Assembly (NCBI GenBank): GCA_001443485.1
Contig: LDXQ01000007.1
Coordinates: forward strand, 1 to 49,066
Length of the DNA: 49,066 nt
From: Candidatus Sysuimicrobiota bacterium CSP1-3
GTDB lineage: Bacteria > Sysuimicrobiota > Sysuimicrobiia > Sysuimicrobiales > Humicultoraceae
Reading direction: 5' to 3'
Below the pieces are notes generated by a model. It did not search any database. It was not told the DNA's origin and saw nothing but the letters and a program-made list of their open reading frames with translations. Below, piece by piece: positions 1,711 through 9,668 of the stretch. Made by a program: the position numbers and the translations under genes. The number at the start of each line of letters is the position of its first letter. Positions within the stretch are counted from its first letter, which is position 1.

Positions 1711-3801
1711 GTGAAGCCGTATCCAGCGGACAAGATCCACAACGTCGCCGTGGTGGGACACGGCGGCACAGGCAAGACCTCGCTTGTCGAAGCGATGCTC
1801 TTCGTGGCCAAGGCGATCGACCGCCTGGGGCGCGTGGACGAGGGCACGACGGCCACCGACTTCGACGCCGAAGAGGTGCGGCGCAAGCACACGATCAACG
1901 CCTCGCTGGCGCCGCTGGAGTGGCGGGAGCGGAAGGTCAATCTGATCGACACACCGGGCTATCCCGACTTCATCGCCGAGATGGTCGCCCCGCTGCGGGT
2001 CTGCGAAGGGGCGCTCATCGTGGTGGACGCGGTGGCCGGGGTGGAGGTGCAGACGGAGAAGGCGTGGAGCAACGCCGATGAGAGCCGCACCAGCCGTCTC
2101 GTCGTGGTCAACCGCCTCGATCGGGAGAACGCCGTCTTCGCCCGCACGGTGGAAGGGCTGGCGGCGAAGTTCGGCACCCGCGTCGTCCCCCTGCAGATCC
2201 CTATCGGCGCGGAGGCACAGTTCCGGGGCGCGGTCGACCTGCTGCACATGACGGCCTATACCTGGGCGGACGGCGAGCCCGCGGTCGGCGAGATCCCGGC
2301 CGACCTGAACGCGGAAGCCGAGGCGGCCCGGGAGCGTCTGGTGGAGGCGGCGGCCGAGAGCGACGATGCGCTGACAGAGAAGTATCTAGAGGAAGGGACG
2401 CTATCGCAGGAGGACCTGGAGCGCGGGCTGCACCTGGGGGTGCGGGCGGGCACACTCGTTCCCGTCCTCTGCGCTGCCGGCCTGCGCACCATCGGCATCG
2501 CGCCGATTCTCGACGCCGTCGTCACCCTGCTGCCCACGCCGCCGGAGGCGGGCCCGGTGGTGGGGCAGAAGCCGGGGAGCGGCGAGGAGGTGCGGCGTGA
2601 GCCCAGCGCGGATGCGCCGCTCGCCGCGCTCGTCTTCAAGACCATGGCCGACCCCTATGTAGGCAAGCTCTCCTACTTCCGCGTCTACACCGGGCGCTTT
2701 TCCAGCGACACCCCGGTGTACAACGCCACGCGTGACAAGTTGGAGCGGGTGGGCACGCTCTACTATCTGCGCGGGAAGCAGCAGGAGGCGGTGGGCCAGA
2801 TCGCCGCCGGGGACATGGGCGCGGTGGCGAAGCTCGCGGAGACGGCTACGGGCAACACCCTCTGCGCCAAGGAGGCGCCGGTCGTGCTGCCGCCGGTGCA
2901 GTTCCCCAAGCCGGCGATCACGCTGGCGATCGAGCCGAAGACGCGCGCCGACGAGGACAAACTGGCGAACGCCCTGCACCGCCTGGCCGAGGAGGATCCC
3001 ACCGTCCGGGTGCACCGCGACGGCGAGATGAAGCAGACCGTGATCTCCGGGATGGGGGAGTCTCACCTGGAGATCATCGCCGACCGCTTGAAGCGCAAGT
3101 TCGGCGTCGAAGTGACCCTCACGGTGCCGCGCGTGGCCTACCGGGAGACGATCAGGAAGAAGGCCGCGGCGCAGGGACGCTACGTCAAGCAGACCGGCGG
3201 CCGGGGGCAGTACGGGGTCTGCAGCCTGGAGCTCGAGCCGCAGCCGCGCGGCGGCGGGTTCGAGTTCGTGGACGAGATCTTCGGTGGGGCCATCCCCAAC
3301 CAGTTCATCACCTCGGTGGAGAAGGGCGTGCGCAAGGCGCTGGAAGAGGGGGTGCTGGCCGGATATCCGGTGGTGGACGTGCGGGTGCGCCTGGTGGACG
3401 GCAAGTACCACCCGGTGGACTCCTCGGACATCGCCTTCCAGATCGCCGGCTCGATGGGATTCAAGGAGGCGGCCGCGGAGGCGCAGCTGGTGCTGCTGGA
3501 GCCGGTGATGAACGTCTCCGTGCGCGTCCCCGAGGAGTTCATGGGCGACATCATCGGCGACCTGAACGCCAAGCGGGCGCGGATTTCCGGCATGGAGCCC
3601 CAGGGGGACGGGACGACGGTGGTGAAGGCCCAGGTGCCGCAGGCGGAGACGCTGCGCTACGCCAGCGACCTGCGCTCCATCACCGGCGGCCGTGGGACTT
3701 TTGAGCTGGAGTCCTCCCACTACGAGGAGGTCCCCGCCCACGTCGCGGAGCGGGTCGTGGCGGAGGCGAAGAAGCAGAAGGCGGCGGCCGCGGGCCATTG
3801 A
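1711..3801 (+). CDS. Elongation factor G-like translational GTPase
   Basis: A 696-residue protein with full EF-G architecture. It has a P-loop GHGGTGKT (residues 16-23), the G3 motif DTPGY (80-84), and a G4 motif NRLD (134-137) instead of the usual NKxD. Domain II and domains III-V follow, including a GGRGQYG stretch typical of domain IV and a C-terminal domain with SITGGRGTFE. It should act on the ribosome in translocation or recycling. The divergent G4 and switch regions suggest the EF-G2/EF-G-like subgroup rather than the main fusA, which usually sits with rpsL, rpsG and tuf. The GTG start at 1711 is 9 nt after the previous stop. dnaG follows 9 nt downstream, so co-transcription is likely. 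Confidence 0.85.
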   Translation: MKPYPADKIHNVAVVGHGGTGKTSLVEAMLFVAKAIDRLGRVDEGTTATDFDAEEVRRKHTINASLAPLEWRERKVNLIDTPGYPDFIAEMVAPLRVCEGALIVVDAVAGVEVQTEKAWSNADESRTSRLVVVNRLDRENAVFARTVEGLAAKFGTRVVPLQIPIGAEAQFRGAVDLLHMTAYTWADGEPAVGEIPADLNAEAEAARERLVEAAAESDDALTEKYLEEGTLSQEDLERGLHLGVRAGTLVPVLCAAGLRTIGIAPILDAVVTLLPTPPEAGPVVGQKPGSGEEVRREPSADAPLAALVFKTMADPYVGKLSYFRVYTGRFSSDTPVYNATRDKLERVGTLYYLRGKQQEAVGQIAAGDMGAVAKLAETATGNTLCAKEAPVVLPPVQFPKPAITLAIEPKTRADEDKLANALHRLAEEDPTVRVHRDGEMKQTVISGMGESHLEIIADRLKRKFGVEVTLTVPRVAYRETIRKKAAAQGRYVKQTGGRGQYGVCSLELEPQPRGGGFEFVDEIFGGAIPNQFITSVEKGVRKALEEGVLAGYPVVDVRVRLVDGKYHPVDSSDIAFQIAGSMGFKEAAAEAQLVLLEPVMNVSVRVPEEFMGDIIGDLNAKRARISGMEPQGDGTTVVKAQVPQAETLRYASDLRSITGGRGTFELESSHYEEVPAHVAERVVAEAKKQKAAAAGH

Positions 3802-3810
3802 CGGTGTGCG

Positions 3811-6759
3811 ATGCGTGAAAGGCTGGGGGCGGCGAGGGACGAGATCCGCCAGCGGATCAATCTGGTGGAACTTGTTTCGCAGCATGTTGCCCTGAAGAAG
3901 GCGGGGCGCCAGTACAAAGGCCTCTGTCCCTTCCATCAGGAGAAGACGCCCTCGTTCCACGTCGACCGGGAGAGAGGCCTTTGGTACTGTTTTGGTTGCT
4001 TCCCCCCAGGCCAGCTGGTGAAGACCCCTTTTGGCTACCACCCCATTGAGACACTCACTGATGAGCACCCCATAGTTTCCGGGCAGGGGAACTACCAACG
4101 TGTGCTTGCAACCCACGCGCGAGATTACAACGGTGACTTGATCGAGATCGTTACCCGAAAGATCCGAAGGCCCGTCAGGTTGACCGCCGACCACGAGGTC
4201 TTTATCGTCCGCCCCACGGCGCGTCACGAAACGCGTTTCAAGTACTTTGCCAGGCGATTCCGGGCGTACTTGAGGCGATACGAGGATGACCCCGGTTACT
4301 ACTTCCGCAAAATCGCGAAATGGCTCCCCATCCGAAAGATGGAGGCCACGGAACTACGAGTTGGCGATTTGCTTCTTTATCCAATCAATGATCGGGTAAG
4401 CCGAGTTGAGCAAATTGACCTGGAAGACTACGTGTCAGCGCGAGGAACCCGTGGGAAGCGACCGGCGCGTCTCCCAGTCGTTCCGGTCAGCGAAGACTTC
4501 CTCCGTCTGATCGGCTATTTCATCGCAGAAGGAAGCACCCATCGAGCCTATGTCCGGTTCAGCCTAGGGAATCACGAGGAGGTGTTCGCCAGCGAGATCA
4601 TCAGACTGATCAAATCTCTCCTGGGGATTCGCTCGGGTGTTCACCGGCGGCGAAGCCCAAGCTCGGGACTGGAGATCACAGCATGCCATGCCGCACTAGC
4701 CAATGCCTTCGCCAACCTGTGCGGCCGTGGTGCAGAGGAGAAGCATATTCCCTTCGTTTTCCAGGAATTGCCCCCTTCCCAGAAGCGCATCCTAGTCGAG
4801 GCCATTGCCCGGGGTGATGGCACGCAGTCAGTCGCAAACCAGTCTAGCCATACACGCCGTTCGATTACAACCGTCTCCCCCGTGCTTGCGGAACAGGTGG
4901 TCGACTTCCTTCTTGCATTAGGTCGTTTCCCTAGCGTCCAACTGAGAGAGCCGAGGCGCGACCGGCAGGGGGTGGTCCACAGGGAGGCTTACACGATTCA
5001 ATGGTCGGAGGACGCGCGTGCGCGATATGACCTCGTCTACCGTACGGATAATGGGAGACGATATTGGCTTCTGCCCATAGAACGGTTAGGGAAATTGAGA
5101 TATCGCGGTCCTGTGTACAACCTGACGGTGGAAAAAGATCACTCCTATATTGTGTCCCACATCGCCGTTGCGAACTGCGGTCAGGGCGGCGACGCCTTCG
5201 ATTTCGTCATGCGCACCGGCAACCTCTCCTTCCCCGAGGCGCTGGAGCAGCTGGCCGCGCGCACCGGCGTGCGGTTGGAGCGTAGCCCGGAGGAGGGGCA
5301 GGACCGCTCGGAGCGGGAGCAGATGCTGCGGGCGCTGGACGCGGCGGCGGCGTTCTACCGGGAGCAGCTGGCCGGCGACGCCGGGCAGGTGGCCCGCGCG
5401 TACTTAGAGCAGCGTGGCGTGGACGCGCAGACGCGAGAGCGGTTCGGCCTGGGCGCCGCGCCGCAGGCTTGGGATGCGCTGTTGCGCCACCTGCGCGGCC
5501 GCGGGTACCCGGTCGCGCTGCTGGAGCGCGCCGGCCTGGTGCAGGCGCGCAGCGGGGGAGAGGGGCACTTCGACTTCCTGCGCCACCGCCTGATCTTCCC
5601 AATCCAGGACCTGCAGGACCGCACCGTCGCGTTCGGCGGCCGGGCACTGGACGACGCCACGCCCAAGTACCTGAACTCCCGCGAGTCGCCCGCGTTCAAC
5701 AAAGGGAGGATGCTCTACGCCCTCAACTGGGCGCGGGAGGCGATCCGGGAGGCGGGCGAGGTCGTCATCGTGGAAGGGTACATGGATGTTGTGACCTGCC
5801 ACCAGGTCGGCATCCGCCACGCCGTGGCGTCGCTGGGGACGGCGCTTACCCCGGACCACGTCCTGCTGCTGAAGCGCTTCGCGCCGCGGGCGGTGGTGGT
5901 CTATGACCCCGACGCGGCGGGCATGGCCGCCAGCGAACGGGGGCTACACCTCTTCGAGGAGGCGGAACTGCCGGTGCGGGTGGCGGCGCTGCCCCAGGGG
6001 CGAGATCCCGACTCCTTCCTCCGCCAGGAAGGCCCGGAGAAATTCCGGACGATTCTGGCCACTGCCCTTTCCATGTTCGACTATCAGGTAGCCCAGGCCC
6101 TCTCCCGCCACGACCCCCGCACCTTAGAAGGAAAGATCGCGTTCGTCGACGAATTGCTGCCTGTTCTAGGGTCGGTGGCAAACCCGGTCCGCCAGTCCGA
6201 ATACCTGCGGGCCCTCGCGGAGCGGTTCAAAGTTTCCGAGGATGCGCTGCGCCAGCGCCTCGTCGCTCTCAGACGGTCGGGCCGGGGCGCGGCGAAGCCG
6301 CCAGAGCCGTCGGCCGTCCAGGGCACCAAACGGTTCCGGGCGGAGCGGCTGCTTGTGCACATGATGGTGCAGGCGCCGGAGGCCCGGAAGGTCGTTCGCC
6401 GAGACCTCTCGGTCGAGGATTTCCTCGATCCCCTCCACCGCAATCTGGCGCAGGTCTTGCTGGACGCGGATGCGCCGGCGGAGGCGCTGAAGGACCGCCT
6501 GGCCGACCAGGAGAGCGTGGCCTTGCTGACGCGGCTGCTCTTCGAGCCGCTCGGGGTCGCGGAGAAGGACGAGGAGAAGGTCTTGCTCGGCAACATCACC
6601 ACCCTCCGCCGGGTGGAGGTGGAGGAGAGACTCCGCGAACTGCGGCGGCGGCTGGCCGAGGCGGAGGCGGTGGGGAACGAGGAAGAGGTCGCGAACCTGC
6701 AGCGGGCGATTTGGGCGCTGCGTAGCCAGGAGCCGCGACCACAGGAGGCGCCGCGCTAA
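3811..6759 (+). CDS. dnaG: DNA primase DnaG precursor containing an intein
   Basis: Primase synthesises RNA primers for replication. The 982-codon frame is too long for DnaG (about 600) because a 393-residue intein (3997-5175) interrupts it; the spliced protein would be 589 residues. The N-terminal CHC2 zinc ribbon has Cys39 and His42 (CPFH) and Cys60. The fourth ligand is the Cys after the intein (codon 5176-5178), giving CFGCGQGGD after splicing. The TOPRIM core follows with VEGYMD (catalytic Glu) and YDPDAAG, then a helical C-terminal helicase-binding region. It lies between an EF-G-like gene and the sigma factor gene, matching the classical dnaG-rpoD pairing. Splicing is inferred from motifs only, but without it the zinc ribbon is broken. 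Confidence 0.95.
3997..5175 (+). other. Intein with LAGLIDADG endonuclease, inserted in the DnaG zinc ribbon
   Basis: The 393-residue insert begins with Cys1 (codon 3997-3999, [13 protein letters not shown]) and ends with Asn393 (VAN, codon 5173-5175) followed by extein Cys+1. Block B is TADHEVFIV, with the usual T-x-x-H. Block F reads [21 protein letters not shown]. Two dodecapeptides, [10 protein letters not shown] near 4507-4536 and [10 protein letters not shown] near 4792-4821, keep their acidic residues (Glu, Asp), so the homing endonuclease may be active. The penultimate residue is Ala, not the common His. The insert is visibly less GC-rich than the flanking primase codons, suggesting separate acquisition. 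Removing it restores the ungapped family sequence, which fixes both splice points. Confidence 0.93.
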
Positions 6760-6775: not shown

Positions 6776-7897
<1,122 letters not shown>

Positions 7898-7973: not shown

Positions 7974-9656
7974 TTACGGGCCGACCGTGAGCTTTGTCGT
8001 ATAGATGCTCTGGTTTCTGTTGCCGACGCTGTTGGTCGCGCCGGGGCCTGGGATCAGGTCGCACTGCCCAGCGGGCACGTCGCGGTTGTCGGTCCAGACG
8101 ACGTGCACGATGTGGTTCGCCCCGTCCCAGCGGGCGTCCAGTTCGATGTAGTCGCCGTGGAAGGCGACACTGCCACTACCAAACATCTGGCAGTTTCCCT
8201 CATGAGACACGCCGGTGACCCTCGTCTCGGCATCAAATGCGGGCCAGGTGAACCCGTTGCAGTTGGTGCAGCGGTAGTAGACGTCGAGGGCCTCGTTGCC
8301 GGCCGTCACGCTGTTCCGGAAGTCGTACCAGGCCGCGTGCAGGGCGCCCTGAGAAACCTCGATCGTCGGCCAGATCTGATGTCGTGACCCGGGGTCGGTG
8401 TTCACCTGCACAGGTGCTCCCCAGGTCGCGCCGCCGTCCGTCGATCGGGCGGCGTAGATGTCGTAGTCGCCGGCGAAACTCTGGTAGGCGACGTAGACGA
8501 TATTGGGGTTCACATTGTCCGTGGCGATGAACGCGAAGGTGGGCGTGCGGAAGGCCACGCCGGGCGCCTGGGGCGCAGAGATCGCCGCCACGTTCACCGG
8601 GTTCGTCCAGTGGGCTCCACAGTCGGTCGACTTGACCATCTGGATCGACGCAACGTCCGAGTTCGTCGTGAAGGTGCGGTACGCGACGTAGATCGTGCCG
8701 TTGGGAGCCACGGCGATGTCGGATCCCTGGGTTCGCACCGTCCCGGCCCGACCGCCGGTGGAGATGACCCGCGGGCTGGAGAAGCTAGCCCCGCCGTTCG
8801 TCGAGCGGCTGAACACGATAGGGAACGCCCCGCCCAAGCCACGGAAACTGGTGAAGCTCACATACACGCTCCCGGCGCATGGGCTGGCCGCGGCCGGATT
8901 CAGGTCGATCTCCATCCATTCTTTGTCCACGAAGATCCCCGCGAAGCCGAAGGGCTGGTTAGGGACGGCGAAGCCGACGGCGCCGCGGTCCACGATGGCC
9001 GTGCCCGCATACGTGAAGTGCGGCGGTGAACCCGCCGTCGTTGTCGTGCTCGCCGTTGCCGCGGTGCCTGGAGTGAAGTTGTACTTGGCGACATAGACGA
9101 CGTTGTCGACCGGCCGGTCCGGCTGGTCGAAGTTGCGGTTGAAGGCGATGCCGGCGACATACAGGTTGCCGGCCGCATCAAACCGGACGACCGGGTCGCC
9201 CGACCCATCGAGGTTCTTCAGCGGCGAGTTAACCCCGTCGCTGGAAGTGTCGGTGGGGAACCCGGGGACCATCGTGTTGTAGCCGTTGGGGAACGGCGCA
9301 GCGCCGAACCAGGTTGTTCCGCTGTTGAAGGAGAGGTAGACGGGCATCCAGGCATCGCCGAAGTGTGGAACCATGCGGTAGTCGTTGGACGCCGCGGCGA
9401 TGATGTCTCCGACCGCGCCACCTGGAGGGGCCATCGGGCTGATGGCCACCGTGGGCTCGTTGGACTGGCGGTTCCTGGCGTCCCTGCTCGGCGTGGTGGC
9501 CGCAGTGCCACCATCGACGTTGTTGTTATCATCGGTGACCTTGACGTTAGGCCCGACGCCGGCGTGGCCGGCAAAGATACTGGGCGCGGTGATGAGGCTT
9601 AACGCCGCGACCACAGTCAACAGGATCTGTACGTGCCGGTGAACGCGAGAAGACAT
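7974..9656 (-). CDS. Secreted Asp-box (BNR) beta-propeller protein
   Basis: A 560-residue protein with an N-terminal signal peptide (basic HRHVQ, then a hydrophobic run ending near SIFAGHA). Several Asp-box turns of form S-x-D-x-G-x-x-W recur (STNGGASF, STDCGAHW, STDGGATW), typical of sialidase-like beta-propellers. No full set of sialidase catalytic residues was recognised, so an enzymatic role is not claimed. The ATG at 9656 was chosen because GGGGGTGAG lies about 8 nt upstream; a GTG at 9668 sits too close to that site. It is a paralogue of the next minus-strand gene (9952-11598): both carry an NEPxxAxxP motif after the signal region. It is probably extracellular. Confidence 0.8.
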   Translation of the reverse strand: MSSRVHRHVQILLTVVAALSLITAPSIFAGHAGVGPNVKVTDDNNNVDGGTAATTPSRDARNRQSNEPTVAISPMAPPGGAVGDIIAAASNDYRMVPHFGDAWMPVYLSFNSGTTWFGAAPFPNGYNTMVPGFPTDTSSDGVNSPLKNLDGSGDPVVRFDAAGNLYVAGIAFNRNFDQPDRPVDNVVYVAKYNFTPGTAATASTTTTAGSPPHFTYAGTAIVDRGAVGFAVPNQPFGFAGIFVDKEWMEIDLNPAAASPCAGSVYVSFTSFRGLGGAFPIVFSRSTNGGASFSSPRVISTGGRAGTVRTQGSDIAVAPNGTIYVAYRTFTTNSDVASIQMVKSTDCGAHWTNPVNVAAISAPQAPGVAFRTPTFAFIATDNVNPNIVYVAYQSFAGDYDIYAARSTDGGATWGAPVQVNTDPGSRHQIWPTIEVSQGALHAAWYDFRNSVTAGNEALDVYYRCTNCNGFTWPAFDAETRVTGVSHEGNCQMFGSGSVAFHGDYIELDARWDGANHIVHVVWTDNRDVPAGQCDLIPGPGATNSVGNRNQSIYTTKLTVGP

Positions 9657-9668
9657 ACAGGCTCTCAC

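Follow-up and report, generated by a model that had tools for sequence, protein, structure and literature searches.

The DNA primase (DnaG) of Candidatus Sysuimicrobiota bacterium CSP1-3 is interrupted within its zinc-binding motif by an insert that is very probably a class 1-type intein, self-splicing and mobile by homing, placed at a CFG/C junction (the slash marks the point of insertion) that is occupied in many phyla. The gene lies in the window, as we call the whole analysed stretch of 49,066 nucleotides. The same insert is present at the same spot in at least six phyla, and therefore we regard the DnaG-site intein as an element that is mobile and widespread, and not as a zinc switch unique to one bacterium. 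The anatomy of the insert, its distribution among genomes, the incongruence of the intein and extein trees, and the conservation of the catalytic residues are direct observations.

Anatomy of the interrupted primase

The exteins of the precursor make up a bacterial DnaG (Table 1). Pfam models of the zinc ribbon (1.5e-30), DNAG_N, Toprim, and DnaB_bind domains match the translated gene, and the NCBIfam dnaG model matches it (1.6e-124) as two segments adjoining at approximately model position 60/61. The extein sequence reads CPFH...CFG before the insert and CGQGGD after it. Residues 10-63 of the precursor align with the zinc-binding domain of Bacillus stearothermophilus DnaG (1d0q) without a gap through C39, H42, C60, and C63, and C63 is the first residue of the intein (Cys1). 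The alignment and the splitting of the NCBIfam match bear out the first-pass annotation, which had placed an intein exactly before the fourth zinc ligand of DnaG.

Table 1 Features of the intein-interrupted dnaG gene in the window
Feature	Position	Strand	Remarks
dnaG precursor (intein-interrupted DNA primase)	3811..6759	+	single open frame, 982 aa
N-extein, CHC2 zinc ribbon to CFG	3811..3996	+	Pfam, 1d0q alignment
Zinc ligand codons C39, H42, C60	3925-3927, 3934-3936, 3988-3990	+	N-extein
C60-F-G/C, third zinc ligand (extein -3) and intein Cys1 in the place of the fourth ligand	3988..3999	+	
Intein with LAGLIDADG homing endonuclease, class 1 type, 393 aa	3997..5175	+	in-frame, 393 codons
Intein block B TADH, T63 and H66	4183..4194	+	conserved in 49/49
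Putative endonuclease acidic residue E178 in GYFIAEGS	4528..4530	+	49/49
Putative endonuclease acidic residue D274 in IARGDGT	4816..4818	+	47/49
Intein C-terminus Ala-Asn, Ala in place of penultimate His	5170..5175	+	AVAN/C end
C-extein: Cys+1 (5176-5178), then catalytic core, Toprim, helicase-binding domain	5176..6759	+	

A gene for an EF-G-type GTPase (1711-3801) precedes dnaG, and one for a sigma-70 factor (6776-7897) follows it. Beside the latter, rpoD, a gene on the reverse strand (7974-9668) encodes a protein of about 563 residues with a signal-like N-terminus and BNR-like repeats (E 2.7e-6, which is below the family cut-off). The host assembly contains a single copy of dnaG, so that DnaG must splice, provided that it is essential; the assembly is an 89% complete draft and leaves some room for a second copy.

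Within the insert, the Pfam LAGLIDADG_3 model matches at 1.8e-8 and the NCBIfam model of intein C-termini scores above its cut-off, while the Intein_splicing, Hint_2, and intein N-terminal models remain below theirs. The insert has the features of class 1 inteins (PMC4031507), namely Cys1, the TxxH motif in the form TADH, Asn393, and Cys+1. The penultimate His, which is usual and non-obligatory in the class, is replaced by Ala392, a detail absent from the first-pass annotation. The 49 DnaG-site inteins compared have Gly (34), Ala (5), Ser (4), His (4), or Cys (2) in this position, and the absence of His from 45 of them makes their splicing rates unpredictable. Block F contains Asn or Asp. Cys1 is present in 49 of 49, as demanded by the motif with which the set was collected; the terminal Asn followed by Cys was likewise demanded in the search for the intein boundary, and every insert free of truncation or frameshift passed. 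The endonuclease domain has two LAGLIDADG motifs, both with acidic residues. A chance insert is excluded by the recurrence of an equal insert at the equal codon in dozens of genomes. Judged from sequence, the DnaG intein is probably capable of self-splicing, and its LAGLIDADG domain is a putative active endonuclease.

The host genome contains additional inteins, whose host genes were named by inspection. Its DnaB (L144, contig 43) has two, one of them at the Walker A motif GK/T, and with inteins in both DnaB and DnaG, both enzymes of the primosome would depend on protein splicing. An intein follows GAQYE in SufB (L145, contig 66), another interrupts the Walker A motif of a RadA/Sms-type ATPase (L147, contig 1), and contig 11 (26024-27595) gives a further Hint/intein signal within a frame of 1006 codons.

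Recurrence of the intein site across bacterial phyla

Contigs of GTDB species were scanned for the motif CPFH, 17 residues, and CFGC, and next a codon whose middle base is T. Beyond the window, 53 of the 90 stretches scanned carry an intein at exactly CFG/C. The suggestion in the first-pass annotation that the site is special thus fails: at least 53 other DnaG proteins are interrupted at this point. Both intein ends are present in 48 of them. The remaining five (L025, L074, L077, L085, and L099) are truncated at a contig end or contain a frameshift or deletion; L025 and L077, with frameshift or deletion, are Campylobacterota sequences from metagenome assemblies and are likely assembly errors. 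Most of the other scanned stretches are uninterrupted primases, which read CFGC, then Leu, Val, or Met, then Gly and Asp or Asn, and a few are chance matches.

The hosts, assigned by record title, belong to Patescibacteria, Campylobacterota, Omnitrophota, Acidobacteria, Chloroflexi, and Bacteroidetes. An essential replication enzyme is thus interrupted, at a recurrent intein site within its zinc-binding motif, in at least six phyla besides that of the window. Patescibacteria hosts include Levybacteria, Gottesmanbacteria, Collierbacteria, Harrisonbacteria, Colwellbacteria, Moranbacteria, Magasanikbacteria, and others, and those from Campylobacterota are Sulfurimonas, Sulfurovum, and Arcobacter. 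An Acidobacteria/Bacteroidetes-type lineage at the site (L026, L035, L043, and L109) retains the penultimate His, and a Chloroflexi-type lineage (L032 and L094) has a penultimate Cys in VCN/C.

The four ligand positions in the set from the scan are forced by the scan motif itself. As a check independent of the motif, three groups of genomes were surveyed with the dnaG HMM alone. Split DnaG genes were found in 9 of the 148 genomes with a dnaG match in the Sulfurimonas family (a further candidate, G164, lies at a contig edge and is ambiguous), in 2 of 72 genomes of the Levybacteria order, and in 1 of 38 genomes of the window's phylum. All of these splits are located at approximately model position 60/61, and no inteins elsewhere in DnaG were seen among the three groups surveyed. 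CPFH, CFG, Cys1, and Cys+1 are kept in all nine HMM-found split genes that were read, three of which (G049, G179, and G115) are on contigs of about 2 Mb.

Descent and horizontal transfer of the intein

The trees of inteins and exteins were quick searches with SH-aLRT support only. Its counterpart in Ca. Levybacteria (58% identity) is the sister of the window's intein in the intein tree (SH-aLRT 98), and both lie within a clade of Patescibacteria inteins; the identity together with the shared clade indicates common descent with the other DnaG-site inteins. In the extein tree, the DnaG of the window is sister to an uninterrupted DnaG from the same genus (81% identity, support 99), and the two group within Ca. 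Sysuimicrobiota, a label taken from the ANGP1 loci L050 and L054. The G+C content is 56.9% in the intein versus 70.4% in the C-extein. The incongruence of the trees and the gap in G+C point clearly to horizontal acquisition of the window's intein. The source was presumably of Patescibacteria type, a direction of transfer deduced from the position of the intein in its tree.

Omnitrophota inteins likewise nest among those of Patescibacteria, whereas Omnitrophota DnaG proteins do not, and in two pairs (L041/L076 and L093/L097) the inteins are more alike than the C-exteins. The Chloroflexi inteins are on a long branch and may represent a separate arrival. The inteins at the DnaG site move between phyla, apparently including from Patescibacteria-type donors. 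Their dN/dS values of 0.06-0.18 correspond to purifying selection.

Inteins in radical-SAM, SufB, RNR, and FtsH genes of the window's phylum fall outside the DnaG-site clade. This placement led us to abandon a local jump from the phylum's own radical-SAM CVF/C inteins, which are 35% identical to the DnaG intein and occupy a similar CxxC site. A viral or plasmid origin was also dropped: tblastn searches, with the precursor against phages and the intein against plasmids, gave no evident site intein among the matches listed, and a motif scan of viral contigs found eight primases, all uninterrupted or cut off. Co-conversion of donor flanks was considered and set aside, since the junction codons are not clearly different from the empty allele of the same genus.

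The zinc-ribbon junction and the question of conditional splicing

In the precursor, Cys60 and the intein Cys1 form a CxxC pair, which could bind zinc or form a disulfide. An AlphaFold2 model of the precursor, built from 45 aligned precursors (mean pLDDT 88), fits the 1d0q ribbon to 0.9 Å over 54 columns with 44% identity, matching in length and identity the sequence alignment that ends at Cys1. The model is metal-free and may merely copy the fold of the family, with a pLDDT of about 72-80 in the ribbon. In the modelled ribbon, Cys1 apparently occupies the position of the fourth ligand, and it is sterically conceivable that zinc is held through it. The earlier proposal that Cys1 stands in for the fourth ligand, which Cys+1 would restore upon splicing, is supported by the 1d0q alignment and the precursor model.

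A zinc or redox latch in the DnaG precursor is plausible. A latch of the kind suggested in the first-pass annotation, based on zinc bound by C39, H42, C60, and Cys1, would mask the nucleophile and couple primase activation to the supply of zinc, a possibility that we consider improbable. The reproduction of the 1d0q ribbon by the model is consistent with it, subject to the limits of the model given above. Splicing of the DnaBi1 intein of Mycobacterium smegmatis is inhibited in vivo by zinc on its nucleophile (PMC7360933), and the title of a cited work reports zinc inhibition of the Ssp DnaE intein without a penultimate His, so that we no longer use the missing His of the DnaG intein as an argument against zinc inhibition. 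However, the precursor has Phe or Leu after the fourth Cys, where Gly is usual, and a tight latch would be a cost to an essential gene. Uninterrupted DnaG proteins with Leu, Ser, or His after the fourth Cys do exist.

A disulfide between Cys60(-3) and Cys1 in the oxidised precursor would block the first step of splicing and free the primase under reducing conditions. Such a function is compatible with a mobile intein, to which it would be an addition, but we hold it to be doubtful. The exact CxxC spacing (-3/1) is imposed by the zinc motif and recurs in the window and all DnaG-site inteins seen, and disulfides between the same positions are native in the Pyrococcus abyssi (Pab) MoaA intein, a close precedent that the first-pass annotation does not mention, and were engineered in Ssp DnaE (PMC3922620; PMC10663303). 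Matching geometry is also found in radical-SAM inteins of the window's phylum (L004, L007, L008, and L020), which sit directly in front of the third Cys of the Fe-S motif CxxxCxxC (junctions CVF/C or CPY/C ... N/CQN) and share with the DnaG intein the combination of a metal ligand and a Cys-3/Cys1 pair. However, DnaG needs the Cys pair for zinc, and the conservation of the pair is therefore no evidence of a switch; moreover, the bacterial cytoplasm is usually reducing, and carriage of the intein is sporadic. We give little credence to the broader claim that zinc or a disulfide captured through Cys1 gates splicing and the supply of active primase in many bacteria, with the metal moving from Cys1 to Cys+1. 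Mobility and sporadic carriage count against an essential switch.

In the strict form of the mobile-element reading, the intein would be a purely selfish element that splices fast and completely under all conditions, unaffected by its location at a zinc ligand. Sporadic carriage, transfer across phyla, and the intact acidic residues of the endonuclease make this rather likely, although conditional splicing is known for some inteins in similarly Cys-rich positions (PMC10663303). A regulatory role, too, would leave purifying selection and conserved residues.

Proposed mechanism of splicing and spread

We favour the mobile homing intein, with which the sporadic, horizontally moved distribution fits as expected for a LAGLIDADG element, and the following mechanism can be proposed. 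The precursor of DnaG would have an incomplete zinc ribbon. Cys1 would attack the bond of Gly(-1), the N-extein would pass to Cys+1, and Asn393 would then cyclise. Ligation of the exteins would set Cys+1 as the fourth zinc ligand of the mature DnaG. A transient latch between Cys-3 and Cys1 on the precursor, whether by zinc or disulfide, is possible and would be secondary. The LAGLIDADG domain probably cuts intein-free dnaG alleles at a highly conserved stretch, which would lead to spread by homing and horizontal transfer, and the copy in the window presumably arrived from a Patescibacteria-type source. The preference for a zinc-ligand site is probably explained by the general need of inteins for Cys, Ser, or Thr at position +1 and for targets that hosts cannot easily mutate.

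The junction bears on conditional protein splicing: since Cys1 replaces one zinc ligand and another is located at -3, a single construct can test gating by metal or by redox state in a natural extein. Even if the DnaG inteins prove ordinary, they provide a set of natural inteins with known site and spread.

Comparison with known inteins

DnaG is among the bacterial intein hosts tabulated for Eubacteria (PMC5874633); these inteins have the host protein in common with ours, and the review text does not state their insertion site. In the literature searched, which lacked the main catalogues (InBase and Novikova 2016), no paper was found to describe a DnaG intein by its site. Thus, DnaG was already known as an intein host, and the new result is the spread of the zinc-site inteins across phyla.

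The inteins DnaBi1 and DnaBi2 of M. smegmatis are similar in belonging to the replicative primosome, and DnaBi1 is sensitive to zinc and peroxide. In contrast to the DnaG intein, DnaBi1 is of class 3 with the internal nucleophile Cys118, and its zinc is bound by C118, V119, and Y128 rather than by a zinc finger of the extein (PMC7360933).

The closest solved structures to the precursor model are the endonuclease-bearing inteins TliVMA (7qsu, 1.6e-20) and PhoVMA (7qst), which together with PI-SceI (1jva) are the best structural matches and share the combination of Hint and LAGLIDADG domains. They differ in residing in VMA hosts and have 13-17% identity to the DnaG precursor model.

The Cys residues of the MoaA extein serve an Fe-S cluster. 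The intein of P. abyssi MoaA, a radical SAM protein, resembles that of DnaG in having Cys1 and an N-extein Cys at -3, and in both hosts Cys residues of the extein contribute to a metal site. The native Cys-3/Cys1 disulfide of the MoaA intein controls splicing (PMC3922620; PMC10663303). The C60-F-G/C junction of DnaG has the same pair of Cys residues as this redox trap. The two systems differ in that the metal site of MoaA is Fe-S and not zinc, its host is an archaeon, and the disulfide has been demonstrated in MoaA alone.
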